Shown here: positions 10,451 through 40,927 of the stretch, piece by piece
How the letters are laid out: every line of letters starts with the position of its first letter
How positions within the stretch are numbered: the stretch's first letter is position 1
DNA from: Acidimicrobiales bacterium
GTDB taxonomy: Bacteria; Actinomycetota; Acidimicrobiia; Acidimicrobiales; MedAcidi-G1
NCBI GenBank assembly: GCA_022449565.1
Contig: JAKUSA010000011.1
Coordinates: 1-45,022, forward strand
Length of the DNA: 45,022 nucleotides
Direction of reading: 5' to 3'
Notes under the pieces: model-generated
What the model was told of the DNA's origin: nothing
Seen by the model: only the letters and a program-made list of their open reading frames with translations
Database searches by the model: none
Made by a program: the position numbers and the translations under genes

Positions 10451-10945
10451 ATGCTCGGCCAATACCTCCCGGTGGTCGCCTTGCTGGTGCTGACCGTGGC
10501 CTTCGCGGCGATCAGCATCCTCGCCTCCAGGCTGCTGGCCCCCAGAAGCCCCAACGATCGGAAACAGGCCCCCTACGAGTGCGGGATCATCCCGGCCCGG
10601 GAGGTGCCGGAACGCTTCCCGGTCCGGTTCTACCTGGTGGCGATGATCTTCATCGTCTTCGACATCGAGATCATCTTCTTCTACCCGTGGGCCATGGCCC
10701 ACCGGGGCATCGGCCTCTTCGGCCTAGTCGCCGCCCTGATCTTCACGGTGGCCGTGTTCGAGTCGTTCGTCTACCTCATCGGCAACGGCGCTCTCGAATG
10801 GGGCCCCCGCCACCGGGACCCGGTGATCGACCCGGTGGACCCCAAACGGCCCGCCAACACCGGTCGCATCGGCGTGCGGGTCGTCGGCGCTGACGGACGC
10901 CCGCCAGCCAGAAAACGTTCGAGTGCCGATAGGGCACTGGCCTGA
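10451..10945 (+). CDS. nuoA: NADH-quinone oxidoreductase subunit A (first complex I)
   Basis: NuoA is a three-helix membrane subunit at the junction of the peripheral and membrane arms of complex I. The 164 residues include a standard domain of about 120, with the loop motif YECG (Cys44, counterpart of ND3 Cys39) and [12 protein letters not shown] (70-81) with its conserved acidic residues. A hydrophilic, basic C-terminal extension of about 40 residues is unusual for the family. A strong AGGAGAGG precedes the ATG, which suggests this is a main translation entry point of the nuo operon. Its stop shares a base with the nuoB start. Confidence 0.95.
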
Positions 10946-11550
10946 TGGCCCGCCTTCCCGGCGCCGGCCGGCTGTCCAGGGTGCTCGACGACGGTCTTGA
11001 GGGCCTCGAGCACAACTTCGTCACCGCCCGTATCGAGAACCTCGTCAAATGGTCTCGGGCCCGCAGCTGCTGGCCGGCCACCTTCGGCCTGGCCTGCTGC
11101 GCCATCGAGATGATGGCCACCGGGGCGGCCCACTACGACCTCGCCCGCTACGGAATGGAGGTTTTCCGGGCGTCACCCCGCCAAGCCGACCTAATGATCG
11201 TCGCCGGACGGGTGTCCCAGAAGATGGCCCCCGTCCTCCGTCAGATCTACGACCAGATGATGGAACCCAAGTGGGTGATCTCCATGGGGGTGTGCGCCTC
11301 CTCAGGCGGGATGTTCAACAACTACGCCATCGTCCAGGGCATCGACCAGGTGGTACCGGTCGACGTGTACGCCCCAGGCTGTCCTCCCGGCCCCGAAACC
11401 CTGATGCACGCCATCCTCACCCTGCACGAAAGCATCCTTTCCGGTGAGTTGACCCGACGGCGGGACGCCAACGACGGAGGGGCGGGAATCGACGCCGGTT
11501 CCGGGCCCGAAGCCTTAGCCGGCCGTCCGGTGGAGATCCTGCCGCGATGA
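10945..11550 (+). CDS. nuoB: NADH-quinone oxidoreductase subunit B (first complex I)
   Basis: NuoB carries the terminal [4Fe-4S] cluster N2, which reduces the quinone. Its 201 residues have the ligands Cys51 and Cys52 ([10 protein letters not shown]), Cys117 (MGVCASSGG) and Cys146 (APGCPPGP). The [16 protein letters not shown] segment is the pattern I know from mycobacterial NuoB, so this operon is the standard actinobacterial complex I. The C-terminal 45 residues after the N2 domain are hydrophilic and variable. It overlaps nuoA by one base and nuoC by four (ATGA), so translation is coupled. The second NuoB at 26152 differs clearly, with CANCGG in the third ligand region. Confidence 0.97.
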
Positions 11551-12011
11551 GCTTGCCGACCACCCCAGCTGTCAGGTCGACGGTCCTGCATCCGGCCCGC
11601 GACGAATTGCTCGAAGTGGTGGCCGGGCTACGCAACGACGGCTACGACATGGTCATCGATCTCACCGCGGTGGACTACGTCGCCCACCCGGGCCGAACCG
11701 ATCTGCCCGAAGGCGTGGTCGGCGAGCGTTTCGAGGTGGTGGTATCGCTGATCCACCACCGGAGCCGGGAGCGGGCGAGAATCCGGGTCCAGGTGCCCGA
11801 GGAGGACCCGGTCGTCCCGTCGCTGTTCGACCTCTACCCGGGGACCGAGGCCATGGAACGCGAGGTGCACGACCTCTACGGGGTGGCCTTTGAGGGACAT
11901 CCCGACCCGACCCGGATCCTCATGCCCGAGGACTGGGACGGTCATCCCCTACGCAAGGACGTGGCGGTCGGCACCATCCCGGTCCGGTTCAAGAACCCCA
12001 CGGAACGCTAA
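11547..12011 (+). CDS. nuoC: NADH-quinone oxidoreductase subunit C (first complex I)
   Basis: NuoC is the 30-kDa subunit of the peripheral arm and has no cofactor; it packs against NuoD. The 154 residues are shorter than many homologues, but the diagnostic block is present. It reads [20 protein letters not shown] (about 110-129), followed by the [15 protein letters not shown] segment. NuoC is separate from NuoD here, unlike in E. coli. The ATG overlaps the nuoB stop (ATGA), and the stop TAA shares a base with nuoD's ATG. The N-terminal part is less conserved. Confidence 0.95.
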
Positions 12012-13345
12012 TGACCGACACCACTGACCGGGAGACCACCCGGCCCGTCGCCACCCCGGAGGAAAGCACCGGCGACGCGCGGGTGCGCCGACGCGACGAC
12101 GGGGCGGTGCTGCGGATGAGCGAGGCCGACGCTTCGGTGATGGCCGGCGGAGGTGACGACCCGGCAAACGACGTCGACGGGGGCCAACGGATGATCCTCA
12201 ACATGGGTCCGGCCCATCCGTCTACCCACGGGGTTCTGCGCCTCATGCTGGAACTCGAAGGGGAGACGGTACTCCGCTCCAAGCCGGTGATCGGCTACCT
12301 GCACACCGGTATGGAGAAGACCGGCGAGGGACTCACCTACCTCCAGGGTCCCACCAACGTGACTCGAATGGACTACGCCGCGCCGCTGTTTTGTGAACTG
12401 GTCTATTCGATGGCCGTGGAGTCGCTGCTGGGCATCGACGTGCCCCCACGGGCCACCTGGATCCGGATGCTTATGTGCGAACTCAACCGGGTCTCCTCCC
12501 ACCTCCTGTTCCAGGCCACCAACGGCATGGACCTGGGCGCGGTGTCGATGATGATCTTCGGTTGGCGAGAACGCGAGGAGGTACTCCGGTTCTTCGAAAT
12601 GGTCACCGGTCTGCGCATGAACCACAACTACATCCGGCCCGGCGGGGTGGCCGCTGACCTACCCGACGGATGGGAGGTCGACCTGGTGCGTCTCCTAGAG
12701 ATCATCCCCCCACGGCTCGACGAGTACGAGGTGCTGCTCAACAACCAGCCCATCTTCCGGGACCGGCTCCAGGGTGTCGGGGTCATCAACACCGCCGAGG
12801 CTCTCGCCCTGTCGGCCACCGGCCCGATCCTGCGGGCCACCGGCTACGACTGGGACCTCCGCCGTGACGAGCCGTACCTGGCCTACGACCAGGTCGCCTT
12901 CGATGTGGTCGTAGGGGCCCACGGCGACGCCTACGACCGGTACGCCATCCGCCTCCAGGAAATCCGCGAATCGCTGAAGATCGTTGAACAGGCCATGGAG
13001 CTCATGCCGGGAGGCGACTACCGGAACCAGGACAAGAAGGTCACCCCACCGCCCCGGGCCCGTATCAACCAGTCCATGGAGGCCCTCATCCACCACTTCA
13101 AGATCTTCACCGAGGGCTTCCACGTGCCACCCGGCGAGGCCTATGCGGCAGTGGAATCCCCGAGGGGCGAACTGGGCTGCTACCTGGTGTCCGACGGTGG
13201 ACCCAACCCCTACCGGATGCACATCAGGGCCCCCAGCTTCGCCAACCTGCAGACCCTGCCCCACCTCATGGAGGGCGGGTTCATCGCCGACGCGGTGGCT
13301 GTCATCTCCTCGGTCGATCCGATCATGGGCGAAGTCGACCGCTGA
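12011..13345 (+). CDS. nuoD: NADH-quinone oxidoreductase subunit D (first complex I)
   Basis: NuoD, the 49-kDa subunit, forms most of the quinone-reduction pocket together with NuoB. The 444 residues begin with a variable acidic stretch of about 60, followed by NMGPAHPSTHG (64-74). The quinone-contacting Tyr is Tyr122 in TRMDYAAP (codon 12374-12376). The Arg that the human NDUFAF7 enzyme methylates in NDUFS2 corresponds to Thr99 here (LHTGMEK), as I recall is also the case in Mycobacterium and Thermus. The C-terminal GELGCYLVSDGG, MHIRAPSF and DPIMGEVDR blocks are canonical. It overlaps nuoC and nuoE by one base each. Confidence 0.97.
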   Translation: MTDTTDRETTRPVATPEESTGDARVRRRDDGAVLRMSEADASVMAGGGDDPANDVDGGQRMILNMGPAHPSTHGVLRLMLELEGETVLRSKPVIGYLHTGMEKTGEGLTYLQGPTNVTRMDYAAPLFCELVYSMAVESLLGIDVPPRATWIRMLMCELNRVSSHLLFQATNGMDLGAVSMMIFGWREREEVLRFFEMVTGLRMNHNYIRPGGVAADLPDGWEVDLVRLLEIIPPRLDEYEVLLNNQPIFRDRLQGVGVINTAEALALSATGPILRATGYDWDLRRDEPYLAYDQVAFDVVVGAHGDAYDRYAIRLQEIRESLKIVEQAMELMPGGDYRNQDKKVTPPPRARINQSMEALIHHFKIFTEGFHVPPGEAYAAVESPRGELGCYLVSDGGPNPYRMHIRAPSFANLQTLPHLMEGGFIADAVAVISSVDPIMGEVDR

Positions 13346-25765: not shown

Positions 25766-26131
25766 ATGTCCGAGTTCCTCCGCAACTGGTTGACCGTCGC
25801 CGTGATCGGCGGCGTCGGGGTGCTGTTGGCGTCGGTGTTCCTCGGGTTAGGAAGCCTGGTCAGACCGTCCCGCGACACACCCCAGAAGGGGATGAACTAC
25901 GAGTCGGGAGTCGACCCGCAGGGCGACATGTGGAGCCAGGCCAATATCCGCTACTACGTGTTCGCCCTAATGTTCGTGCTCTTCGACGTCGAGGCCGTGT
26001 TCATCTTTCCGTGGGCGGCCCGGCTGGAGTCCTACGGGATGTTCGGCCTGGTAGAGATGGCCATCTTCATCGCCATCCTGGCCCTAGGACTGTTCTACGC
26101 CTGGCGCAAGCGCCTGCTGCGGTGGATCTGA
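25766..26131 (+). CDS. nuoA: NADH-quinone oxidoreductase-like subunit A (second complex I)
   Basis: This is a 121-residue three-helix NuoA without the C-terminal extension of the first copy. The first loop reads YESG (Ser47) where the first copy has YECG. The second helix has VLFDVEAVFIFPWAA, retaining the conserved acidic residues. The sequence is clearly divergent from the first NuoA, so the operons are old paralogues or of separate origin. The ATG has only a weak AGG-type RBS. nuoB follows after 20 bases. Confidence 0.95.
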   Translation: MSEFLRNWLTVAVIGGVGVLLASVFLGLGSLVRPSRDTPQKGMNYESGVDPQGDMWSQANIRYYVFALMFVLFDVEAVFIFPWAARLESYGMFGLVEMAIFIAILALGLFYAWRKRLLRWI

Positions 26132-26151
26132 GCGGGTAAGAGAGGCGCTTC

Positions 26152-26652
26152 ATGGGACTCGTTCAAGACGGCAAGATGCCCGGCCCGCTCACCAAGCTGC
26201 TTAACGTGAGCCGCAAGTACTCCCTCTGGGTCTACCAGTGGGGCCTGGCTTGCTGCGCCATCGAGATGGGCGCGGCCTTCGCCTCGCCCCGGTATGACGT
26301 GATGCGCTTAGGGGTCATCCCGTTCCCGGCCAGCCCCCGACAGGCCGACCTGGTCGTCATCTCGGGCACGGTGACTGACAAAATGGCCCCCGCGGTACGT
26401 CGCCTCTACGAGCAGATGCCCGAACCCAAGTACGTGATCTCCATGGGTTCATGTGCCAACTGCGGCGGGCCCTACTGGGACAGCTACTCGGTCACCAAAG
26501 GCGTAGACCAAATCATCCCCGTCGATGTGTACGTGCCCGGTTGCCCACCCCGACCCGAGGCTCTGCTGGAAGGGATCGTCCTGCTCCAGGAGCGCATCGC
26601 CAACGAAGATATGACCGACCGTTGGAACAGGGATCCAATTGTCGTCACCTGA
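26152..26652 (+). CDS. nuoB: NADH-quinone oxidoreductase-like subunit B (second complex I)
   Basis: This NuoB of 166 residues carries cluster N2 through Cys34 and Cys35 ([10 protein letters not shown]), Cys101 (GSCANCGG) and Cys131 (VPGCPPRP). An extra Cys104 lies in the [16 protein letters not shown] segment, which resembles the widespread bacterial/mitochondrial form more than the CASSGG form of the first copy. All four N2 ligands are present, so quinone reduction is expected to start from N2 here as well. The 3' end overlaps the TTG start of nuoC by 14 bases. Confidence 0.95.
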
Positions 26653-27355
26653 CACCACCACCGACGAGGTCCATGAGACCGACGACGCGGCAGAACCAGC
26701 TGTCGATGACACCCGCGACGCTCTTGTGGCATCCCTGGCCGACGCGCTCGGCGACGCCCTGGTGTCCTCCGAGGTGCAACCGGGCGTCGACGTTTGGGTC
26801 CGGGTCGACGCCGGAGCATGGGTCGAGACGGCCCAGACGCTTCAGGGCCACTGCGGCATGGTCTACTTCAACTTTCTGTCAGCCATCGACTGGCAGCCGT
26901 CGCCCTTCGGGCGCGACATGGACGCCGTTATAGACCGGGAGGATGATGGCGAGCCCGCGGCACCGGCCGACCTTGAATGGGGCATCACCGGCGGCGAGCA
27001 GCGGTTCCAACTCCTGGCCCGGGTACACGACCCGATCGGTCACCTGGGGGTCCATGTGAAGTGCGACCTCGAAGGAGACCCCCCGGAGGCTGACACCTGG
27101 ACAGTGGTCTACCCGGGGGCCGACTGGCACGAACGGGAGGCCTGGGAGATGTTCGGTATCAACTTCCGGGGCCACCCCAACCTGGTCCACCTGTACCTAC
27201 CCTCGGAATTCGAGGGCCACCCCCTCCGCAAGGACTACCCACTGCTGGCCCGGCGGGTGAAGCCCTGGCCAGGCATCGTCGACGTCGAACTCATGCCCGG
27301 CCAGGACGACGCCGACGACGAGGCCGACGACGGTGAGGACGCGGACGACTCGTGA
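26639..27355 (+). CDS. nuoC: NADH-quinone oxidoreductase-like subunit C (second complex I), TTG start
   Basis: This is a NuoC of 238 residues, clearly longer than the first copy (154). The extra length comes from an acidic N-terminus of about 50 residues, an insertion near 100, and an Asp/Glu-rich tail. The diagnostic region is [19 protein letters not shown] (about 163-181), followed by the [15 protein letters not shown] block. The start is a TTG at 26639 inside the nuoB end, with AGGG about six bases upstream. I see no better start downstream that keeps the domain. The stop overlaps nuoD's GTG. Confidence 0.88.
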
Positions 27356-28524
27356 CCGCACCGACCCAGACCCGACAGATGGCCTACATCGCTGGGCAGG
27401 CCAGCGACGCCCGGGTAAACGTGGAACTCGAGACCGAAGGCATGACCCTCAACATCGGGCCCCAGCACCCGGCCACCCACGGGACCCTCCGGATAATCGT
27501 CCGCCTCGACGGCGAACGGGTGATTTCCGCCGAGCCGGTCATGGGCTACATGCACCGCGGTTACGAAAAGCTCACCGAGGTCCGCACCTACCCGCAGGTC
27601 ACCACGCTCATCAACCGGATCGACTGGCTGGGCAGTTTCGCCAACGAAGTGCCGTTCATCCTGGCCGCCGAACGGCTCATGGAGATCGAGGCCCCACCCC
27701 GGGCCCAGTGGATCCGCACCGCCCTGTTCGAGTTGTCCCGCATCGCCAACGTGGTGCTGTTCCTCGGTGACATGGGCGTCCAGTTGGGGGCCATCACCCC
27801 GGTCTTCTACGCCTTCCGCGATCGAGAGTTTGTACTCAACCAGATCGAAGCGGTCACCGGTGGTCGGTTCCACCCCAACTTCGACCGCATCGGGGGCCTC
27901 AAGGACGACTTACCCAAAGGCTGGGTCGACGAAACCCGGGGGGCCCTGGGCCGTATCCGATCCTTCTGCGACGAGATGGAGAACCTGGTCTCCGGCAACG
28001 AGATCTTCCAGGCCCGCACCCGGAGCATCGGGGTGATCCCCGCGGACATGGGCCTGGCCTACGGGCTCTCGGGGGCCAACATACGGGCCAGCGGCGTCGA
28101 CTGGGACCTCCGCCGGGACGGCGGCGTGGGCCTGGTCCACGACCAACTGGACTGGAAGGTGTGGACCCACCCGGACGGCGACTCGTTCGCCCGGTACTGG
28201 GTGCGCCTCCAGGAGGTTCGGGAGGCCTGCGGAATGGTCGAGCAGATCCTGGACGGCATTCCGTCCGGACCGGTCATGGCCAAGGTGCCCCGCATATTCA
28301 AGGTGCCGGCCGGCGAGGCCTACGTGGAGACCGAGAACCCACTGGGGATCATGGGCTACTACGTGGTTTCCAAGGGCGACCTGGTGCCCTACCGGGTCAA
28401 GATCCGCTCGGCCTCCTTCAACAACGTCTCCATCACCCCCTGGGTGCTAAGGGGCGTGTACGTCCCCGACGTGATCTCCATCCTGGCCAGCCTCTACTTC
28501 ATCCTCGGGGACATCGACCGGTGA
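27352..28524 (+). CDS. nuoD: NADH-quinone oxidoreductase-like subunit D with altered quinone-site Tyr (second complex I)
   Basis: This NuoD of 390 residues should form the quinone pocket with NuoB2. NIGPQHPATHG (34-44) is intact. The position of the quinone-contacting Tyr (Tyr122 in the first copy; Tyr87 in Thermus, Tyr108 in bovine numbering as I recall) is Trp92 here, in INRIDWLGSF (codon TGG at 27625-27627). In contrast to the first copy, it has Arg69 in MHRGYEK, the counterpart of the human NDUFS2 Arg that NDUFAF7 methylates. [22 protein letters not shown]-type C-terminal sequence is normal. The GTG start overlaps nuoC, and the stop overlaps nuoH. Replacement of the Tyr suggests a different quinone affinity or quinone type. 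Confidence 0.95.
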   Translation: MTAPTQTRQMAYIAGQASDARVNVELETEGMTLNIGPQHPATHGTLRIIVRLDGERVISAEPVMGYMHRGYEKLTEVRTYPQVTTLINRIDWLGSFANEVPFILAAERLMEIEAPPRAQWIRTALFELSRIANVVLFLGDMGVQLGAITPVFYAFRDREFVLNQIEAVTGGRFHPNFDRIGGLKDDLPKGWVDETRGALGRIRSFCDEMENLVSGNEIFQARTRSIGVIPADMGLAYGLSGANIRASGVDWDLRRDGGVGLVHDQLDWKVWTHPDGDSFARYWVRLQEVREACGMVEQILDGIPSGPVMAKVPRIFKVPAGEAYVETENPLGIMGYYVVSKGDLVPYRVKIRSASFNNVSITPWVLRGVYVPDVISILASLYFILGDIDR

Positions 28525-29558
28525 ATACCGTGGTGACCGCCGTGGAGTTGGCCTACTGGCAGCAGACCGCCATCCGGTCGGTGGCAGCGCTGGTCGCCGT
28601 GCTCATCCCCGCTGGGACGCTGGTCTACCTGTACCTGTTCAAGATGATGAGTTTCATGCAGAGCCGGCTCGGCCCCATGGAGGCCGGCCCGTACGGTTCA
28701 CTGCAACTCCTCGCCGAGGTAGGCAAATTCCTCCAGAAGGAGGACCTCATCCCCCGGGCCGCCGATCGGGTGGTGTTCAAAGCCGCACCCTTTGTGGTGC
28801 TGGTGTCGACGTTCCTGCTGGTTCTGGTCCTGCCCGCCGGGCCCGACCTCTGGTTCATCAACGTGGATACCGGGGTGTTCCTGGCGCTCGCCGTGTCGTC
28901 CATCTCGGTCATCGGGATCCTCATGGCCGGCTGGGGGTCGGCCAGCAAGTACTCGCTGCTCGGAGGCCTACGGGCCGCTGGACAGTTGGTGGCCTACGAG
29001 CTTCCCCTGGTCCTGGCGGTGATAGGCGTGGTTATCCAGGCCGGCACCCTAAACATGCAGGAGATCGTCCTGGCCCAGGCCAACGGCGAGATCTTCGGTT
29101 GGGGCGCCATCGGCAACCCCTTCGTGATCACCCAGTTCCTGGGCTTCGCCATCTTCCTGGTCGCCGTCCAGGCCGAGTTGACCCAGCCCCCGTTCGACAT
29201 GCCGGTGGCCGAGTCGGAGATCGTCGCCGGCTACCTCACCGAGTACAGCGGCATGCGGTTCCTGCTGTTCTTTATCGCCGAGTTCGCCACCGCGGGGATC
29301 TTCGCCGCACTGGCCGCCACCCTTTTCCTCGGCGGGTGGTACGTGCCCGGCCTCGACCCGGCCTCTGACCTGTTCAATCTGATCGGGCCACTGGTCCTGC
29401 TGACCAAGATTGTCCTGGTGTCGTTCCTGATCTTCTGGTTCCGGTTCACCTACCCCCGGTTCCGGGAAGACCAACTCCAGCAACTGGCCTGGAAAGTGCT
29501 CATCCCGCTGGCCCTGGCCAACATCGTGGTCACCGGTGTTCTGAAGGTGGTGTTCTGA
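28521..29558 (+). CDS. nuoH: NADH-quinone oxidoreductase-like subunit H lacking the loop-1 Glu-Arg pair (second complex I)
   Basis: NuoH2 starts at a GTG overlapping the nuoD stop and has 345 residues, without the C-terminal addition of NuoH1. In the first cytoplasmic loop, NuoH1 and most homologues have FERK; NuoH2 reads [15 protein letters not shown], so the Glu is Leu39 and the Arg Phe40 (28635-28640). The following ADGIKLFFKED is also changed, to [11 protein letters not shown]. Later blocks are normal: [10 protein letters not shown], then [18 protein letters not shown]. It remains a membrane subunit with about eight helices. The change lies at the mouth of the quinone channel, in the same region affected by the Trp in NuoD2. 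Confidence 0.95.
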
Positions 29559-30067
29559 TGCCCGCCTTCCCGGGCCTGCCGGGCCTGATCACCGGACTCG
29601 GAGTGACCCTGCGCACCCTGGTCCGCACCATCACCAAAGGGGCCCACACCGTCCAGTACCCCCGGGTCAAGGAGGCCCCCACCACTCGGGCCCGAGGCGT
29701 GATCGCCCTCCACGAGGAGAACTGCACCGCCTGCATGCTCTGCGCCCGGGAGTGCCCCGACTGGTGCATCTACATCGAGGGACACAAGTACAAGGCCCCA
29801 CCACGGCGGCCGGGCGGCAAGCCCCGGCAGAAGAACGCCCTCGACCGGTTCGACATCGACTACGCGCTGTGCATGTACTGCGGCATCTGTGTCGATGTGT
29901 GCCCGTTCGAGGCACTGTTCTGGTCGCCGGAGTTCGAGTTCTCCGAACCCAAGATCGCCGACCTACTCCACGACAAGGCCCGCCTCTCCCAGTGGATGGA
30001 AACCGTCCCCGAATTCGAGGACTACGAAGCGGGCAGCGAAGCCAAGAAGCCCGAGGTGCCCCGGTGA
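29558..30067 (+). CDS. nuoI: NADH-quinone oxidoreductase-like subunit I (second complex I)
   Basis: This NuoI has 169 residues with two [4Fe-4S] sites: Cys56, 59, 62 and 66 ([12 protein letters not shown]) and Cys105, 108, 111 and 115 ([12 protein letters not shown]). Cys70 in DWCIYI is additional. A basic stretch ([16 protein letters not shown], about 78-93) lies between the clusters. Because this operon has no NuoG, NuoF or NuoE, NuoI2 is the only iron-sulfur entry to NuoB2 and would receive electrons directly from an external donor. Its sequence recalls the NuoI of the second nuo cluster of Streptomyces, from memory. It overlaps nuoH and nuoJ. Confidence 0.95.
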
Positions 30068-30618
30068 GCGTCGTGGTGTTGTGCGCCGCACTGCCCGGCC
30101 TGGACCCGCTCACCGGCGGCGAGGTCCTGGTCGCCCAGAACGTCGCCTTCGCGGTGATCGGCCTGACCATGGTGGCCGCCGCGCTACGCATGGTGACCAC
30201 CACCAACGTGGTGCACGCCGCCCTCTACCTGGTGATCGTGCTGGCCGGGGCCGCTGGGCTGTTCATCCTCCTGGGGGCCGAGTTCGTGGCCGTAACCCAG
30301 GTGCTGGTCTACATCGGGGCCATCGTGGTCCTCTTCCTCTTCGGGATCATGCTCACCCGCGGCTCGTACGGCACCGACGAGGACGTGGGTCGGGAACGAC
30401 ACCTGATGGCCGCCCTGGTCGGAGTGCTGGTGCTCGGCGTGACCGCCGGGTCACTGGTTGACACGTTCCGGGACGCCGAACTGGCACGCTCCGCGCCGAG
30501 CACCGCCGCTCAGATCGGCGACAGCATCTTCGGCCAGTACATCGTGCCCTTCGAGGCGATCTCGGTGCTGCTGCTCGCTGCCCTCATCGGAGCCGTCGTC
30601 GTGGCCCGGAGTGACTGA
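30064..30618 (+). CDS. nuoJ: NADH-quinone oxidoreductase-like subunit J (second complex I)
   Basis: NuoJ2 starts at the GTG overlapping the nuoI stop (GTGA) and has 184 residues with five helices. The third-helix segment [20 protein letters not shown] is conserved with NuoJ1, including the Tyr and Gly of the pi-bulge region. The hydrophilic C-terminal tail of NuoJ1 is missing. A gap of three bases leads to nuoK. The role in coupling quinone chemistry to pumping should be retained. Confidence 0.94.
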
Positions 30619-30621
30619 ACC

Positions 30622-30921
30622 ATGCTGTTGAACCAGTTCCTGCTGCTGTCCGCGGTGCTGTTCGCCATCGGCGTCTACGGGGTGCTAGCCCGCCGCAACG
30701 GGGTGCTAGTACTCATGTCGATCGAGCTGATCCTCAACGCGGTGAACATCAACCTGGTGTCGTTCGCCGCCTTCCGGGAGGCTGTCCCGGGTGAGGTGTT
30801 CGCTCTTTTCGTAGTGGCCGTGGCGGCCGCTGAGGTCGGAGTGGGCCTGGCCATGGTCCTGCTGTTGTACCGGAACCGTCGCAACATCGATCTCACCGAG
30901 ATCGACCTGATGAGGGGCTGA
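30622..30921 (+). CDS. nuoK: NADH-quinone oxidoreductase-like subunit K (second complex I)
   Basis: This is a three-helix NuoK of 99 residues. Both buried glutamates are present: Glu35 in MSIELILNAVNI and Glu71 in AAAEVGVGLA. The proton path of this complex is therefore likely to be functional. The ATG follows the nuoJ stop by three bases, and nuoL follows by four. Confidence 0.95.
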   Translation: MLLNQFLLLSAVLFAIGVYGVLARRNGVLVLMSIELILNAVNINLVSFAAFREAVPGEVFALFVVAVAAAEVGVGLAMVLLLYRNRRNIDLTEIDLMRG

Positions 30922-30925
30922 GCCG

Positions 30926-33184
30926 ATGGGAGGGTTATTCGTCCTCGCCGCCTCGGCGGCCGGAAGCCTCCCCCTCGGGGTGACCGAGAGCGGCAACTGG
31001 TTCCTGCGCAACGCCTGGCTAATCCCGCTGCTGCCCGCTCTGTCGTTTGTTGGGATCCTGTTCTTCGGCAAGCGGCTCCCACGGGGCGGTTCCGAACTAG
31101 GGATCGCCGCCCTGGGCATCGCCCTACTGCTGTCGGTGTGCACCGGGCTGGCCTGGATGAGCCACCGCGACGACTACCACGGCCAGGAGACCCACCTGTC
31201 GGTAGTGGCCGTGGACCACGACGGGCGTGCCGCCGACCCGGGCGGCCACCAGGTACACGGCGAGCCGTCGGTGGCCGTGACCAACACGGTCACCTGGTTC
31301 CAGGCGGGCGGCGTGGAGTTCACCGCCGGGACGCTGGTGGACGGGCCGGCCGTGATGATGCTCTTCATGGTGACCCTCGTGTCACTGCTCATACACGTGT
31401 ACTCCACCGACTACGTGGCCGGGGACCGTCGCTACACCCATTTCTTCGCCTTCATGTCCCTGTTCAGCGCGTCGATGCTGCTCCTCGTCGTCTCCGAGAA
31501 CACCCTGCAACTGCTGGTCGCCTGGGAGCTGGTCGGTGTGTGTTCCTTCGTGCTGATCGGCCACTGGTGGGAGGAGCGGGACAACTCCGACGCCGCCCTG
31601 AAGGCCTTCCTCACCAACCGGGTGGGCGACATGGGACTAATCGTCGGAGTGACCGTCCTGTTCTTCGCCGTGGGTGCCGCCCGGCCCGACACTTTCGGGT
31701 CATTCTCGATCGTCGAGACCAACGCCCTGGCCTCATCAGGGATGCTGCCCCACACCACCCTGCTGATCGCCGCCTGCTGCCTGATGGCCGCCGTCATGTC
31801 CAAGTCAGGACAGTTCTTCCTCCACACCTGGCTGCCCGACGCCATGGCCGGGCCGACGCCGGTCTCGGCGCTCATCCACGCGGCGACCATGGTGGTGGCC
31901 GGCGTGTTCATGATCGCCCGCCTCTACGGGGTTTTCTTCGAGGGCCTGTCCATCGCCGGAACCTCCATCAACCTGATGGCCCTCGTCGGCGGGTTCACCA
32001 CCCTCGTCGGAGCCTGCCTGGCCTTCGTGCAACGGGACATCAAGAAGGTGCTGGCCTACTCCACGATCTCCCAGTTGGGCTACATGGTCATGGCCCTAGG
32101 CGTCGGGGCCTGGACGGCAGCCATGTTCCATCTGTTCACCCACGCCTTCTTCAAGGCCTGCCTGTTCCTCGGTTCCGGGTCGGTGAGCCACGCCGTGCAC
32201 AGCTTCGACATGAAGTCCGACATGGGCGGCCTCCGCCGGGTGATGCCCCACACCTACCGGACGTTCATGATCGGTTCCATCGCCCTGGCCGGCCTGCCGC
32301 CGCTCGCCGGATTCTGGTCTAAGGACGAAATCCTGGCCGGCACCGGCGGATGGGGCCTCCTCGGTGGCACCGGCGGCAACGGCGCCTACACCCTCATGCT
32401 GGTCATGGGCATGGTCACCGCGGCCCTCACCGCCGCCTACATGACCCGCTGCGTGTACCTCACGTTCTTCGGCGAGTACCGCGGCCACGGTCAACCGCAC
32501 GAGTCGGGCCCCCGGATCACCGTGCCGCTGTGGATCCTGGCCGGTCTGGCATTGGTCGCAGGATTCGCCAACCTGCCCAAGGGCTTCCAGTTGGTCCCCG
32601 AGTCGCTCCAGGAGCGATTCGGTCACTACGTGGAACCGGTGGCCGGCTACTTCCCCCAGGTCACCCACGCCACCCCCAGTTGGTCACTGGCCATGGTGTC
32701 CACGCTGGTGGTCCTCGCCGGGATCGGGGTGGCCGCCCACTACTACTTCGTGCGCGTCGCGAGGGCCTCCAAGGCTGCCGGGCAAAGCCTCACCGAACTC
32801 CCCAATGGCCCGACCACCCGACTCGCCGTGGCCCGCCTCGGCCATACCCTGCTGGCCAACAAGTACTACCTCGACCACCTCTACACCGGGATCGTGGCCG
32901 GCGGCACAAAGGGTCCGGTGGCCCGCTTCGCCTACCGCACCAACCAGGAGGTGCTAGACCGCGCCGTCGACGGGGTGGGGCGCACCGCAGTGGCCGCAGG
33001 TCGGGTCGTCTACCACCAGATCGACCAGAAGGTGGTCGACGGTTTCATCAACGGCTCGGGACAGGTCTCGATCGACAGCGGCGAGAAACTTCGCCGCATC
33101 CAATCCGGGAAGGTCCAGAATTATGCGGCAATCCTCTTCGCCGCGGCGACGGTTCTGGCCGGACTACTCATCGTGTTCGTCTAG
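30926..33184 (+). CDS. nuoL: NADH-quinone oxidoreductase-like subunit L, extended form (second complex I)
   Basis: NuoL2 has 752 residues, 111 more than NuoL1. The additional sequence is partly an N-terminal extension of about 25 residues and partly a hydrophilic loop (about 75-125), rich in His, Asp and Gly, between the first helices. The C-terminal region after the antiporter core is also longer. The pumping residues are kept: Glu in LVAWELVGVCSFVLI and Lys in MSKSGQFFLHTWLPDAMAGP. An amphipathic lateral helix and two charged segments (VDGVGRTAVAAGR, VVDGFINGSG) end the protein, as in NuoL1. The gap to nuoM is 12 bases with a strong RBS. Confidence 0.95.
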   Translation: MGGLFVLAASAAGSLPLGVTESGNWFLRNAWLIPLLPALSFVGILFFGKRLPRGGSELGIAALGIALLLSVCTGLAWMSHRDDYHGQETHLSVVAVDHDGRAADPGGHQVHGEPSVAVTNTVTWFQAGGVEFTAGTLVDGPAVMMLFMVTLVSLLIHVYSTDYVAGDRRYTHFFAFMSLFSASMLLLVVSENTLQLLVAWELVGVCSFVLIGHWWEERDNSDAALKAFLTNRVGDMGLIVGVTVLFFAVGAARPDTFGSFSIVETNALASSGMLPHTTLLIAACCLMAAVMSKSGQFFLHTWLPDAMAGPTPVSALIHAATMVVAGVFMIARLYGVFFEGLSIAGTSINLMALVGGFTTLVGACLAFVQRDIKKVLAYSTISQLGYMVMALGVGAWTAAMFHLFTHAFFKACLFLGSGSVSHAVHSFDMKSDMGGLRRVMPHTYRTFMIGSIALAGLPPLAGFWSKDEILAGTGGWGLLGGTGGNGAYTLMLVMGMVTAALTAAYMTRCVYLTFFGEYRGHGQPHESGPRITVPLWILAGLALVAGFANLPKGFQLVPESLQERFGHYVEPVAGYFPQVTHATPSWSLAMVSTLVVLAGIGVAAHYYFVRVARASKAAGQSLTELPNGPTTRLAVARLGHTLLANKYYLDHLYTGIVAGGTKGPVARFAYRTNQEVLDRAVDGVGRTAVAAGRVVYHQIDQKVVDGFINGSGQVSIDSGEKLRRIQSGKVQNYAAILFAAATVLAGLLIVFV

Positions 33185-33196
33185 GAGAGGTCAGAC

Positions 33197-34837
33197 ATGG
33201 AAAATCTGCTCGACGGCTGGGGCCTCACCATGGCCACCTTCTCGCCGCTGCTCGGAGCCGCGGTGATGCTCCTCATCCCGAAGGAGCGGGAGGACCGGCA
33301 TCGGCTCATCGCGCTGGTTACCTCACTGTGGGTGGCATTCGTCAGCCTGCTGGTGCTGATCTGGTTCGACCTGGGCGCTACTGACCGCCTGCATTTTGTG
33401 GTCGACAAGAGCTGGATCGAAGCAATCCACAGCCGCTACGTGCTCGGCGTTGACGGCATATCGCTGCCATTGCTCCTTTTGACCGTGCTCATCGTGCCGC
33501 TGTGCATCGTCTACAGCTGGAACCACTTCCCGGAACCCCGAAACCCCAGAGCCTTCCTGATCCTCATACTGGTGCTCGAGACGGGAATGATCGGCACGTT
33601 CCTGGCCCAGGACCTGGTGCTGTTCTTCGTGTTCTTCGAAGTGGTCCTACTGCCCATGTTCTTCATGATCGCCGTGTGGGGCGGCCCCAACCGGCGCTAC
33701 GCCTCAATGAAATTCTTCCTATTCACCCTGTTCGGTTCGGCACTGATGCTGGTCAGCTTCCTGGCCCTGTTCTTCCTGACCGGCGCGGAGTCGTTCGTGT
33801 TCAGCGAAATGGCCGACAACGTGGTGGCCAACGCGGTGTCCCACACCGCGCAACTGTGGATCTTCGGCGGCATGTTCCTCGGGTTCGGGATCAAGGTCCC
33901 CATGTTCCCGTTCCACACCTGGCTGCCCGACGCCCACACCGAGGCCCCAACCGTCGGCTCGGTGATCCTGGCCGCCGTCCTGTTAAAGCTCGGCACCTAC
34001 GGGTTCATTCGAATCGCAATCCCGATCCTGCCCGACGCGGCGGTCGGGTGGGCACCATGGATCGGTCTGCTGGCCGTCATCGGCATCATCTACGGGGCGT
34101 TGGGCTGCCTGGCCCAGACCGACATGAAACGACTCATCGCCTTCTCGTCGGTGGCCCACATGGGCTTCGTGATGCTGGGTATCGCCACCCTGACCGACTT
34201 CGGCATCAACGCAGCGATCATGGGAATGGTGGCCCACGGGCTGATCACCGGGATGCTCTTCTTCCTGGCCGGCTCAGTCAAGGAGCGCTACCACACCCTC
34301 GAGATCAGCCGGCTGGGCGGCCTGCTGGTCCAAGCCCCCCGCATGGGGTGGATCTTCGGGTTCTGCGCCATGGCCTCCCTGGGCCTTCCCGGCCTGGCCG
34401 GCTTCTGGGGTGAGTTCCCAGCGATCCTGTCGGCCTACAACCCGGCCAACGGCGTGCCCGTCGAGACGTTCCGCACCTTCATGGTCGTCGCCGCCCTCGG
34501 CACCGTGCTGGCCGCCGGCTACCTCCTGTGGCTCCTACAACGGTCGGCCTTCGGCAACCCACCTGACGAATTCGCCAACGACCCCAACATCGTTGACACC
34601 ACCCGGACGGAGTGGATCGCCTGGGCGCCGATGCTGGCCCTCATCCTGGCCATCGGCATCTACCCCAACCTGGTGTTCGGGATCACCGACGACGCCGTGG
34701 ACGCCTCGCTGGCCCCCTGCCTGACCGTCGAGGCACCCTTGGACCACGACCTCGCCGAAACCCTGGCCTGCTCCGAGGTCTACGACCTGGGCGGGCAGGA
34801 CCACCACTCGCACGACCACACGGCGACCGGAGGCTGA
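33197..34837 (+). CDS. nuoM: NADH-quinone oxidoreductase-like subunit M with Cys- and His-containing tail (second complex I)
   Basis: NuoM2 has 546 residues and the 14-helix antiporter core. AGGAGAGG precedes the ATG. Conserved residues are the Glu in VFFEVVLLPMFFM, the Lys in FGIKVPMFPFHTWLPDAH and the Lys in VLLKLGTYGF, whose preceding Leu uses TTA (33983-33985) as in nuoM1. After the last helix comes an unusual tail of about 45 residues with Cys508 and Cys525, ending in DHHSHDH (535-541). In antiporter-like subunits of this family the C-terminus faces outside, so a disulfide and a metal site are conceivable. nuoN follows after three bases. Confidence 0.95.
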   Translation: MENLLDGWGLTMATFSPLLGAAVMLLIPKEREDRHRLIALVTSLWVAFVSLLVLIWFDLGATDRLHFVVDKSWIEAIHSRYVLGVDGISLPLLLLTVLIVPLCIVYSWNHFPEPRNPRAFLILILVLETGMIGTFLAQDLVLFFVFFEVVLLPMFFMIAVWGGPNRRYASMKFFLFTLFGSALMLVSFLALFFLTGAESFVFSEMADNVVANAVSHTAQLWIFGGMFLGFGIKVPMFPFHTWLPDAHTEAPTVGSVILAAVLLKLGTYGFIRIAIPILPDAAVGWAPWIGLLAVIGIIYGALGCLAQTDMKRLIAFSSVAHMGFVMLGIATLTDFGINAAIMGMVAHGLITGMLFFLAGSVKERYHTLEISRLGGLLVQAPRMGWIFGFCAMASLGLPGLAGFWGEFPAILSAYNPANGVPVETFRTFMVVAALGTVLAAGYLLWLLQRSAFGNPPDEFANDPNIVDTTRTEWIAWAPMLALILAIGIYPNLVFGITDDAVDASLAPCLTVEAPLDHDLAETLACSEVYDLGGQDHHSHDHTATGG

Positions 34838-34840
34838 TCG

Positions 34841-36349
34841 GTGGATCCCGGCCTACTAGCCCTGGCCTTCGAGCGCCCTGCGATCGACTGGCACGCTGTC
34901 GCGCCCGAGATCGTCCTGTTGTCAATGGGCTGTCTGATCACCCTCCTCGACATCGTGTTCCTCGACCGCATCCGGCCCTACACCGCGGCACTGGCCGGAC
35001 TGGGGCTGCTGGCTACCACCATCCCCATCCTCACCCTGGCCGTCGACGGCACCGACCGGGTGCTGTTCGGCGGCGCATACGTGGTGGACGACTTCGCCCT
35101 AGTCATGAAGGTCGTGTTCCTGCTGGCCGGCTACCTGGTGGTTCTGATGTCCACCAACTACGTGGCCGAAGGCGACTACTGGGAGAACGAGTACTACGGC
35201 CTGCTGCTGGCCTCGGTGATGGGCATGGTCATGATGGCCTCCTCCCGGGACCTCATCTCGGTGTTCGTGGCCCTCGAGTTGCTCTCCATCCCGGCCTACC
35301 TGATGGTGGCCTGGCGCAAACGCGACCCGCGCTCCAACGAAGCGGGGCTCAAGTACTACCTGATGGGGGTGTTCGCCTCAGCCGTGATGCTCTACGGCAT
35401 GTCCCTGCTCTTCGGGGTGAGCGGCACGACCCTCCTGGCTGGGATCGGCGAAGCGGTCGGCTCGGACGCCGGGTCGGTGGCTGCAGTGACCCTCGGCATC
35501 GTGTTTGTGGTCGCGGGTTTCGGCTTCAAGGTGTCCGCCGCGCCCTTCCACACCTGGGCCCCCGACGTGTACGAGGGCGCCCCGACCCCGGTCACCGCCT
35601 TCTTATCGGTGGCCTCGAAGACGGCCGGCTTCGTGGCCCTCCTGGCCCTGGTCTTCGTCGGCTTCTACGGCCGGGCCGACGTCTGGGAGCCGCTGGTCTG
35701 GGTGCTCTCGGCGGCTTCGATGACCGTCGGCAACCTGGTGGCCCTGCGCCAAACCAACATGGTGCGGCTCATGGCCTACTCAGGCGTGGCCCAGACCGGG
35801 TTCATGATCGCCCCGCTGGCCGTGGCCGGCCACAGCGTGGCCACCGGCGACCAGGCTCTATCGGCCACCGTCACCTACCTGGCGATCTACGCGGCCATGA
35901 ACCTGGGAGCCTTCGCAGTGGTCATCACCCTGGCCCGCCGGACCGGTTCGGCCGAGATCTCCTCCTACGCCGGCGCTTTCCACTACGCGCCAGGACTCAC
36001 CTTGGCCATGACGGCGTTCCTGTTCTCACTAGCCGGCATCCCACCGCTCGGCGGGTGGTTCGCCAAGTTCGAAGTGTTCCGGGTGCTGGCCACGGCCGGC
36101 GAACCCTGGGGGTACGTGCTGGCCGTAGTGGCCGCCGTCAACTCGGTGATCGCGCTCTTCTACTACGCGGCGATAGCCCGGCGGATGTGGGCCGAAGACG
36201 TCCCCGATGGCGACCTCTCGCCCGTGTCGGTTACCCCGTCCCTGGTCTCGGCCCTGGCCCTGTGCGGGATCGTCACCCTCGCGTTCGGCGTCGCCCCCCA
36301 AGCGGTGGCCCGGTTCACCAATGTGAGCCTGTTGGCCCTAGGAGGCTGA
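34841..36349 (+). CDS. nuoN: NADH-quinone oxidoreductase-like subunit N (second complex I)
   Basis: NuoN2, 502 residues, closes the 11-gene operon. The GTG has GGAGG seven bases upstream. The buried charged residues are the Glu in FVALELLSIPAYLM, the Lys in GFGFKVSAAPFHTWAPDVY and the Lys in SVASKTAGFVALL. About 14 helices are expected. It ends 25 bases before the methyltransferase gene; a small hairpin in the gap is too weak to be a sure terminator, so co-transcription with that gene is likely. Confidence 0.95.
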   Translation: MDPGLLALAFERPAIDWHAVAPEIVLLSMGCLITLLDIVFLDRIRPYTAALAGLGLLATTIPILTLAVDGTDRVLFGGAYVVDDFALVMKVVFLLAGYLVVLMSTNYVAEGDYWENEYYGLLLASVMGMVMMASSRDLISVFVALELLSIPAYLMVAWRKRDPRSNEAGLKYYLMGVFASAVMLYGMSLLFGVSGTTLLAGIGEAVGSDAGSVAAVTLGIVFVVAGFGFKVSAAPFHTWAPDVYEGAPTPVTAFLSVASKTAGFVALLALVFVGFYGRADVWEPLVWVLSAASMTVGNLVALRQTNMVRLMAYSGVAQTGFMIAPLAVAGHSVATGDQALSATVTYLAIYAAMNLGAFAVVITLARRTGSAEISSYAGAFHYAPGLTLAMTAFLFSLAGIPPLGGWFAKFEVFRVLATAGEPWGYVLAVVAAVNSVIALFYYAAIARRMWAEDVPDGDLSPVSVTPSLVSALALCGIVTLAFGVAPQAVARFTNVSLLALGG

Positions 36350-36354
36350 GATCC

Positions 36355-36370
36355 CCGGTCGTTCGACCGG
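36355..36370 (+). other. Small perfect hairpin between nuoN2 and the methyltransferase gene
   Basis: CCGGTC-GTTC-GACCGG forms a six-pair stem with a four-base loop and no T-run. It lies four bases before the TTG start of the next gene, in the place of a ribosome-binding site. It might reduce translation of that gene or act as a weak attenuator. Confidence 0.35.
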
Positions 36371-36374
36371 ACCG

Positions 36375-37391
36375 TTGGCCGGCCGCCTGGCCGACCGGAT
36401 CGTCCGTTCGGGTCCGATCCCATACCCGGAGTTCGTCGAGGCCTGCCTCTACGACGAGACGCACGGCTTCTACGCATCCGGTGGGGCGGCCGGCCGTCGG
36501 GGCGACTTCCTGACCAGCCCCGAAGTGGGCCCGCTATTCGGCGCTGTACTGGCCCGCTGGATGGATGACGTCTGGGAGGCCCTCGGCCAGCCGGGCGGGT
36601 TTACCGTCGTAGAAGCAGGAGCAGGCCGGGGAACCCTGGCCCGGGCGGTGGTCGCCGCTGGTCCCCGCTGCCTGGAAGCTGGGACGTACCTAATGGTGGA
36701 GCGCTCCGCGGTCCTGCGAGCCGACCAGCCATCCGGTATTGGCTTCGCATCGTCGGCCCACCTGCCCGACGGGGGTATCACCGGGGTGGTGGTAGCCAAC
36801 GAACTCCTCGACAACCTGCCTTTCGGACTACTGGCCGCCGACGGTGATCAGTGGCGGAGCGTCCGGGTAGGTCTCGAGGCCGATCAGCTTGTGGAGGTGT
36901 TAGCCGAGGAGTGCCTCCCCCCGGTAGACATCGCGCCGGTCCCCGGAGCCCGGATCCCCGATCAGGGAAGCGCTGCCGCGTGGACTACTGGGGCATTGGA
37001 GAGCCTCGACTTCGGCGCCCTACTGGTCGTCGACTACACGTCCACCACCACCGAGATGGCTACCCGCCCGGTGGACCAGTGGCTACGCACCTACCGGGGC
37101 CACCAACAAGGTGGTCGCCCGATCGACGACCCGGGCAGCCAAGACATCACCGTAGAAGTAGCCGTCGACCAACTCCCCGAACCGACCTCGACCACCGACC
37201 AGGCCACATTCCTAGCGGCCCACGGCATCGACGACCTGGTAGCAGAGGGCCGGCAAACCTGGACCGAACAAGCAACCACCGGCGACCTGGCGGCGGTGCG
37301 GGGCCGTAGCCGGATCGTCGAGGCCGAAGCCCTCCGTGACCCGACCGGCCTAGGGGGCTTCACCAACCTGGAATGGCGGGTCGGCTGCTGA
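36375..37391 (+). CDS. SAM-dependent methyltransferase of the MidA/NDUFAF7 family (TTG start)
   Basis: The 338 residues belong to the family of human NDUFAF7, which dimethylates an Arg of the NuoD homologue NDUFS2 during complex I assembly. Visible motifs are the N-terminal GPIPYPEFVEACLYDETHGF (about 13-32), RRGDFLTSPEVGPLFG (39-54) and the SAM-binding VVEAGAGRGTLARAV (78-92). VVANELLDNLPF (138-149) and a later LVVDYTSTT follow. The start is a TTG at 36375; no RBS is visible, and a hairpin lies just upstream. The position directly after nuoN2 suggests a role in maturing the second complex I: the target Arg is present in NuoD2 and absent from NuoD1. Family membership is well supported; the substrate is inferred. 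Confidence 0.88.
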   Translation: MAGRLADRIVRSGPIPYPEFVEACLYDETHGFYASGGAAGRRGDFLTSPEVGPLFGAVLARWMDDVWEALGQPGGFTVVEAGAGRGTLARAVVAAGPRCLEAGTYLMVERSAVLRADQPSGIGFASSAHLPDGGITGVVVANELLDNLPFGLLAADGDQWRSVRVGLEADQLVEVLAEECLPPVDIAPVPGARIPDQGSAAAWTTGALESLDFGALLVVDYTSTTTEMATRPVDQWLRTYRGHQQGGRPIDDPGSQDITVEVAVDQLPEPTSTTDQATFLAAHGIDDLVAEGRQTWTEQATTGDLAAVRGRSRIVEAEALRDPTGLGGFTNLEWRVGC

Positions 37392-39369
37392 CCAGGCTTT
37401 GCCTCCCACTAGGGTCCAAGGCCGGTCCGGGCTACGAGCTAAGGAGCGAAAGCGATGACCGAGCCGACCATCGAGGAGCTCTACGTCGAGGAACGGACCT
37501 TCCCGCCGCCGACCGAGTTTGCCGCCGCGGCGCTGCTCGCCGACTCCTCCCACCACGACGAGGCCACCACCGACTATGAGGCCTTCTGGGCCCGCCAAGC
37601 CCGCGAGTTGCTCACCTGGGACGAGGACTTCCACACGGTCCTTGAATGGGACCAACCCTTCTCGAAGTGGTTCGTCGGCGGTCGGCTCAACATGTCCTAC
37701 AACTGCCTCGACCGCCACGTAGAGGCAGGTTTCGGCGACCGGATCGCCTACCACTGGGAAGGCGAACCGGGCGACACCCGGACCATCAGCTACGCCGACC
37801 TGCTCGACGAGGTGTGCCGGTTCGCAAACGCATTGCTTGCCCTAGGCCTCGAGCGCGGCGACCGAGTGGCCATCTACATGCCGATGATCCCCGAACTACC
37901 GGTAGCCATGCTGGCCTGTACTCGCATCGGGGTGGCCCACAGCGTCATCTTCGGGGGCTTCTCACCCGACTCCATCGTGGACCGATGCGAGGACGCCGAG
38001 GCCCGGCTCATCGTCACCGCGGACGCCGGCTACCGCCGCGGCGCCCCGTCGGCGCTGAAGGCCAATGTGGACGCCGCGCTGGCCGGCGGGGCCCCGTCGG
38101 TCGAGCACGTGGTGGTCGTCAACCGCTGCAACACCGAGGTGGCCATGGTCGACGGTCGGGACCTGTGGTGGCACGACGTGATAGCCGATGCCCCGACCCA
38201 TTGCCCGGCCGAACCGATGGACAGCGAACAACTCCTCTACCTGCTGTACACGTCGGGCACGACAGCCAAACCCAAGGGGATCATGCACACCACGGGCGGC
38301 TACCTCACCCAGGTGGCCTACACCCACCGATACGTGTTCGACCTCCGCCGGGAGACCGACGTCTACTGGTGCGCAGCCGACATCGGCTGGGTCACCGGCC
38401 ACAGCTACATCGTCTACGGACCATTGGCCAACGGCTGCACGTCGGTCATCTACGAAGGCACCCCGGATACCCCACGGCCCGAGGGGCGTAACGGCGACCA
38501 GGCCGAGTGGCCCAAGGACCGGCTCTGGGACATCATCGAGCGCTACCGGGTCACCCAGCTCTACACGGCCCCCACTGCCATAAGGACCTTCATGAAGTGG
38601 GGCGCTCAGGAGCCCGAACGCCACGACCTCTCCTCCCTGCGGGTGCTGGGCACGGTGGGCGAGCCCATCAACCCCGAGGCGTGGATGTGGTACCACACTC
38701 ATATCGGCGGCGAATCTTGCCCGGTGGTCGACACCTGGTGGCAGACCGAGACAGGCGGGCACATGATCAGTCCGCTACCCGGTGTGACGACCACCAAGCC
38801 CGGTTCGGCCTGCTTGCCGATCCCCGGAGTGTTCGCCGAGGTGGTCGACGACGCTGGCCAGCCGGTGGCCCACGGCGGCGGCTACCTAACCATCACCCGG
38901 CCGTGGCCGGGAATGCTACGGGGCATCTGGGGGGACCCCGACCGCTACCGCGACACCTATTGGTCACGCTTCGAGGGCCGCTACTTCGCCGGTGACGGAG
39001 CCAAGGTCGACGAGGACGGTTACCTGTGGCTGCTAGGCCGGGTCGACGACGTGATGAATGTGTCCGGTCACCGGATCTCCACCGCGGAGGTCGAATCGGC
39101 CCTGGTCGACCATCCCGCAGTCGCCGAGGCCGCGGTAGTCGGGGTCACCGATGCCATTACGGGCCAGGCCATCGTCGGCTACGTGATTCTGCGCGGCTCG
39201 CACCAGGCGTCCGACGAACTAGGTGAGGAGGTGCGCGCCCACGTGGCCACCAAACTCGGCCCGATCGCCCGCCCAAAGACCGTGGTGCTAGTCCCCGACC
39301 TACCCAAGACACGCAGCGGGAAGATCATGCGGCGTCTGTTGCGCGACGTAGCTGAGGGCCGAGACCTGG

Positions 39370-40927
<1,558 letters not shown>

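Follow-up and report, generated by a model that had tools for sequence, protein, structure and literature searches.

A MidA-family methyltransferase gene next to the second nuo cluster of an Acidimicrobiales-type actinobacterium, with NuoD2 Arg69 as its predicted substrate

Results

Two versions of complex I and a predicted methylation target in one of them

The product of the midA gene that follows the second of two nuo clusters in a marine Acidimicrobiales-type actinobacterium most likely dimethylates Arg69 of NuoD2 during assembly of the nuo2 complex, with NuoD1 of the same genome predicted to be no substrate. MidA would act as an S-adenosylmethionine (SAM)-dependent protein arginine methyltransferase on NuoD2 before this subunit joins NuoB2, as suggested by homology with the human NDUFAF7-NDUFS2 pair; again by homology, Arg69 is expected at the interface of NuoD with NuoB, close to the terminal cluster N2. 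The evidence laid out below comprises the family, fold and conserved residues of MidA, the gene order, the co-occurrence of midA with one type of NuoD in Actinomycetota, the tracking of nuoD2 by midA and a residue switch in NuoB; that Arg69 becomes dimethylated is predicted from the human and Paracoccus homologues, and the symmetry of the product, the stage of assembly at which it is made, its effect and the selectivity of the enzyme in the cell are likewise predictions.

The window (the whole analyzed stretch of 45,022 nucleotides) encodes a complete nuo1 operon followed directly by the nuo2 cluster, and the genes relevant to the argument are the following:

10945..11550, + strand: nuoB1 (PF01058), with Arg89 in VAGRVSQKM (codon 11209-11211)
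12011..13345, + strand: nuoD1, predicted non-substrate, with Thr99 in HTGMEK (codon 12305-12307, ACC)
25766..36349, + strand: nuo2 cluster of 11 genes, A2 B2 C2 D2 H2 I2 J2 K2 L2 M2 N2
26152..26652, + strand: nuoB2 (PF01058), with Thr73 in ISGTVTDKM (codon 26368-26370)
27352..28524, + strand: nuoD2, proposed substrate (PF00346, E 1.8e-74)
27556..27558, + strand: codon CGC of NuoD2 Arg69, the proposed target, in HRGYEK
36350..36374, + strand: nuoN2-midA gap of 25 bases, the nuoN2 stop being at 36349
36375..37391, + strand: midA, a PF02636/COG1565 MidA/NDUFAF7-family methyltransferase of 338 amino acids, called from TTG
37455-39449: acetyl-CoA synthetase gene, downstream of midA

The nuo2 cluster lacks NuoE, NuoF and NuoG (NuoA2 was assigned from its position and from relatives). 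Such a cluster is known from the related Ca. Actinomarinales, for which the coenzyme F420 (F420H2) has been proposed as the donor (PMC7771536). The peptide around Arg69 of NuoD2 reads VMGYMHRGYEKLTEV, whereas NuoD1 reads VIGYLHTGMEKTGEG at the matching site; this difference, Arg69 in HRGYEK against Thr99 in HTGMEK, had been pointed out in the first-pass annotation, and both residues and both codons are confirmed on the sequence. The PF00346 match of NuoD2 is split in two, with about 25 profile positions (172-196) absent compared to NuoD1, and the same is seen in relatives. Of 80 relatives, 68 likewise have a relative of the acetyl-CoA synthetase gene close to midA.

Complex 1 carries the arginine in NuoB instead

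Reading the paired residue of NuoB by pairwise alignment revealed a mirror image of NuoD that had been overlooked previously: complex 1 combines Thr99 of NuoD1 with Arg89 of NuoB1, and complex 2 combines Arg69 of NuoD2 with Thr73 of NuoB2. Thus, nuo2 of the window shows the Arg-type complex I pattern (Arg in HRGxE plus a NuoB Thr), and nuo1 shows the Thr-type pattern (Thr in HTGxE plus a NuoB Arg). Across all the loci compared, the NuoD/NuoB pair was Arg/Thr in 59 cases and Thr/Arg in 39, with no Arg/Arg and no Thr/Thr pairs; the remaining pairs were Arg/Trp (3) and Arg/Ser (1), and 12 had one or both residues unreadable. An intersubunit arginine switch of this kind has been described for Yarrowia NDUFS2 R121/NDUFS7 T122 versus Thermus Nqo4 Thr/Nqo6 R83, where both arginine side chains occupy the same space (PMC8042128). 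Given this reciprocal pairing, the arginine of complex 1 sits in NuoB1 and the NuoD1 site offers no target; NuoB1 Arg89 would supply the equivalent positive charge, as in Thermus, and complex 1, having in NuoB1 the arginine that is missing from NuoD1, would not need MidA.

The midA gene and its product

A Pfam profile search with the midA ORF product gave a match to PF02636 (Methyltransf_28) with E 1e-28 and 100.7 bits, above the cut-off of 23.3. In an AlphaFold model built from 22 relatives (mean pLDDT 91.6), the window MidA aligns with all 5 MidA-family structures over 312-321 residues (Z 31.7-33.7), so that these match the whole chain, whereas the best of the other methyltransferases reaches Z 14.6 over about 195 residues. 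The window protein retains all the residues that are invariant or near-invariant in an alignment of 18 diverse actinobacterial members: G82, G84 and G86 of the glycine-rich SAM loop (E80-AGAGRG-86), E109, N142-E143-D146, D220-Y221 and G254/D257/T259. The proposal that ORF 36375-37391 encodes a MidA/NDUFAF7 methyltransferase is therefore borne out: by Pfam match, fold and conserved residues, the product is a full-length member of the family. It is the sole midA of the source assembly, which is 74.6% complete.

As proposed earlier, midA follows nuoN2 after exactly 25 bases, and a scan of this gap called no terminator-like site, in line with the claimed lack of a strong terminator. The gap contains a short, perfect hairpin, CCGGTCG-TT-CGACCGG (36355-36370), which we rejected as a terminator because it has no T run and was not called by the scan. 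No Shine-Dalgarno sequence is present ahead of TTG 36375. A candidate alternative start, ATC at 36351-36353 (+ strand), lies in frame 5 bases past AGGAGG (36340-36345). The same arrangement, an in-frame ATC or ATT 5 bases past a GG[G/A][G/A]G stretch overlapping the 3' end of nuoN2 (GGxGGCTGA[C/G]AT[C/T]), is found in 11 related sequences (the loci compared were L190, L194, L196, L198, L200, L201, L203, L206, L296 and L297, together with window positions 36340-36377). In L190, L194, L198, L200 and L296, there is no in-frame ATG, GTG or TTG upstream of the conserved MidA core; in the more AT-rich relatives L191-L193 and L195, the midA start is ATG. These sequence comparisons suggest that ATC 36351-36353, rather than TTG 36375, may be the true midA start, and CTG starts are possible too.

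midA co-occurs with Arg-type NuoD

In a sample of 296 actinobacterial genomes (all at least 90% complete except for that of the window), Pfam identified midA in 78. When the genomes were compared by NuoD motif, midA was found in 39 of 40 with HRGYEK, 16 of 18 with HRGAEK and 5 of 5 with HRGHEK, that is, 60 of 63 in these three classes. One apparent exception, G430 (HRGAEK), was dismissed, as it has a divergent midA-like gene close to nuoD2 (E 8e-71 with the Streptomyces-type profile), and counting this gene raises the total to 61 of 63. In the genomes without a midA match, G039 and G218, the contig ends inside nuoH2, less than 1.3 kb from the HRG motif, and 456 bases from the motif, respectively. 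If midA were as common alongside Thr-type NuoD in genomes lacking a second nuo operon, the pairing with NuoD2 would fail; among genomes with only the Thr (HTG) type, midA occurs in 3 of 60, compared to 61 of 63 (Fisher p = 1.9e-27 for HRG[YAH]EK versus Thr-only, a descriptive value that ignores shared ancestry). The three Thr-only genomes with a PF02636 match are G279, G376 and G417, for which incompleteness is the sole explanation that we can offer; the match in G417 is partial and lies near a Thr-type NuoB.

The same comparison was performed for 198 genomes of the class to which the window belongs, with the HRG-type motif detected by a DNA pattern. midA was found in 162 genomes and the motif in 162; both were present in 151 and neither in 25, leaving 11 discordant genomes of each kind. 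Most of the genomes with the motif and no midA (8 of 11) were rejected as true counter-examples, their contigs ending inside nuo2 before the midA position; the other three are G021, G109 and G192. Among the genomes with midA and no motif, loss of the arginine was rejected for families f53 (HRAAEK), f71 (HRSLEK) and f89 (HRSVEK), which retain it and were missed by the DNA pattern. In G040, NuoD2 is truncated by a contig end, and this is probably also the case in G172 and G180.

The altered motif of f53 (L093-L098), where Ala replaces the Gly after the target Arg and midA is still located near nuoD2, bears on the possibility that MidA is an assembly chaperone of NuoD2, with methylation of Arg69 absent or minor and, perhaps, another NuoD2 residue or a neighboring subunit being modified. 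The persistence of midA beside a nuoD2 that has lost HRGxEK would fit such a role, as would the strong divergence, apparent in the alignment, of MidA proteins in Streptomyces-like genomes, given that Arg69 methylation is predicted by homology. However, the SAM loop and N142-E143-D146 are intact in the window MidA, the corresponding arginine is fully dimethylated in human and Paracoccus (PMC3829151, PMC3750175), and f53, f71 and f89 keep the arginine despite the changes around it. We consider a chaperone role unlikely and favor dimethylation of Arg69.

midA follows nuoD2 when the operon breaks up

Among 80 named genome loci, 77 have a nuoN2 ahead of midA in the same orientation, mostly adjacent to it; in the same 80 loci, the NuoD2 motif is GYMHRGYEK in all 46 readable cases. 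Such an arrangement would also be produced if midA were a hitch-hiker of nuo2 with another protein, or DNA, as the substrate, its association with Arg-type NuoD being a by-product of linkage: most Acidimicrobiia merely have midA as the gene following nuoN2, midA-like genes occur in 3 Thr-only genomes, and a study in which Wolbachia MidA was expressed in E. coli reports DNA methylation by this protein (PMC12455994), so that the family may not be confined to one kind of substrate. Linkage and shared ancestry do account for part of the co-occurrence. However, in f26 (G013, G042) and f47 (G269), midA is on a separate contig far from nuo2, and both midA and the HRG-type NuoD have been kept; elsewhere, the two are 19-57 kb apart. 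Furthermore, in the Streptomyces-like, f52 and f53 genomes, the nuo2 cluster lacks D2, and nuoD2 is found elsewhere with midA adjoining it; the distance between midA and nuoD2 was 0.4-8.6 kb in all 14 Streptomyces-like genomes measured, and in G372, the two genes run in the same direction, with midA extending over the nuoD2 start. (The label 'Streptomyces-like' is putative and reflects the resemblance of the separate nuoD2 to that described for Streptomyces in a passage of PMC8388888.) Thus, midA tracks nuoD2, not the operon, and the retention in f26 and f47 together with the displaced pairs indicates that linkage alone is no explanation. We regard the tracking of nuoD2 by midA through the break-up of the operon as the strongest argument for a functional connection between the two, and an unrelated substrate as improbable. 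Action of MidA on NuoD1 as well, or at some other conserved residue in both complexes, would be conceivable, since the operons share a region and the cell contains both NuoD proteins, but is barely credible, considering the Thr at the NuoD1 site and the absence of midA from 57 of 60 genomes with only the Thr type.

Arg-type NuoD without MidA

Although the genome-level co-occurrence upholds the earlier prediction that MidA acts on NuoD2 but not on NuoD1, with methylation itself projected from the homologues, the arginine alone does not predict midA: the gene is found in 1 of 31 genomes with HRGFEK, 0 of 20 with HRGLEK and 0 of 5 with HRGIEK. Some of the HRGLEK and HRGIEK matches probably represent hydrogenase-type subunits rather than complex I; L119 and L120 fit weakly. 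The HRGFEK genomes, by comparison, have a full nuo2 with a Thr-type NuoB2 and no midA (L115, L116, L117, L121), so Arg-type NuoD functions without the enzyme in these lineages. In the class of G244 (34 genomes), a single weak, partial PF02636 match was detected, in G417, where only a Thr-type NuoD was found.

The NuoD tree places the HRGFEK clade within Arg-type lineages that carry midA (main branches with support of 97-98; its grouping with the Streptomyces-like clade, 86), and, because of this nesting, midA was probably lost in the HRGFEK clade. Within family f66, G225 has HRGMEK and midA, whereas the 11 other members have HRGFEK, with midA in none of them (L189 vs. L118). These observations suggest that, in two separate lineages, midA loss went along with Phe two residues past the Arg; G235, which has both HRGFEK and midA (with 5% contamination), speaks against a strict Phe rule. 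A tentative generalization, which we consider possible but on balance doubtful, is that, in Arg-type complex I outside proteobacteria, methylation of NuoD by MidA is an optional, switchable addition, kept for the second complex I of Actinomycetota, with midA tracking nuoD2 through the break-up of the operon, and dropped in at least two HRGFEK lineages, where Phe, perhaps, makes methylation unnecessary.

Comparison with known systems

Human NDUFAF7 forms symmetric dimethylarginine at the matching residue of NDUFS2 (PMC3829151), and in Paracoccus the matching arginine of NuoD is dimethylated, whereas that of E. coli is unmodified (PMC3750175). A scan of control genomes gave PF02636 matches in just three, Caulobacter, Synechococcus and Haloferax; E. 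coli and Thermus had none, although both have NuoD-family proteins. E. coli is therefore another case of the arginine without MidA. Both a role of bacterial MidA homologues and methylation of a bacterial NuoD at the matching residue (in Paracoccus) have been proposed previously (PMC3750175, PMC9006661).

Sequence relatives of the window MidA in the PDB are limited to 1zkd (Rhodopseudomonas), 4f3n/4g67 (Burkholderia) and 5ztz (Dictyostelium MidA). The nearest in both sequence and structure, 1zkd and 4f3n/4g67 (COG1565), are proteobacterial and were deposited as uncharacterized or likely methyltransferases; 4g67 contains a bound S-adenosyl ligand. Dictyostelium MidA and human NDUFAF7 have the same fold as the window protein (for 5ztz, Z 32.8 over 317 residues, with 22% identity), and the proposed substrate and residue are alike; unlike these, the window MidA is bacterial and encoded in a nuo operon, and the NuoD1 of the same cell lacks the target. 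The paper behind 5ztz reportedly proposes, judging by its title, a proteobacterial origin of NuoD modification, a proposal on which a working MidA-NuoD pairing far outside proteobacteria, if real, would bear.

Paracoccus denitrificans is known to have a single complex I with the full set of 14 subunits, unlike the window, where an 11-gene cluster lacking NuoEFG accompanies a Thr-type complex. It likewise has an HRG-type bacterial NuoD, the arginine of which is symmetrically dimethylated (PMC3750175), a state that is predicted for the window. Thermus thermophilus, with Nqo4 Thr and Nqo6 Arg83 (PMC8042128), shows the same arrangement as NuoD1 Thr99 and NuoB1 Arg89, whereas the window genome has both arrangements, one per complex. 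A methylated Arg-type and an unmethylated Thr-type complex in one cell would, if confirmed, serve as an internal control for the effect of dimethylation, and the HRGFEK lineages would provide an Arg-type complex without the enzyme for comparison.

The passage on Streptomyces nuoD2 in PMC8388888 places this gene apart from the remaining nuo2 genes, the same split as in the Streptomyces-like genomes sampled here; the passage names no methyltransferase gene, whereas midA is close to nuoD2 in those genomes. If the proposed function is correct, Streptomyces would offer a compact midA-nuoD2 pair for genetics. No link of midA to actinobacterial nuo2 was found in the open papers, a set that does not cover the main 2018 MidA paper (Cell Reports); the new elements here are the contrast of two complexes within one genome and the nuoD2-midA gene pair.

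Acidimicrobiales-like midA loci, with 45-49% identity, were also encountered in records labeled as Dehalococcoidia, Acidobacteria and Bifidobacterium breve (L249, L254, L262, L269), which are probably mislabeled or misassigned metagenome bins.
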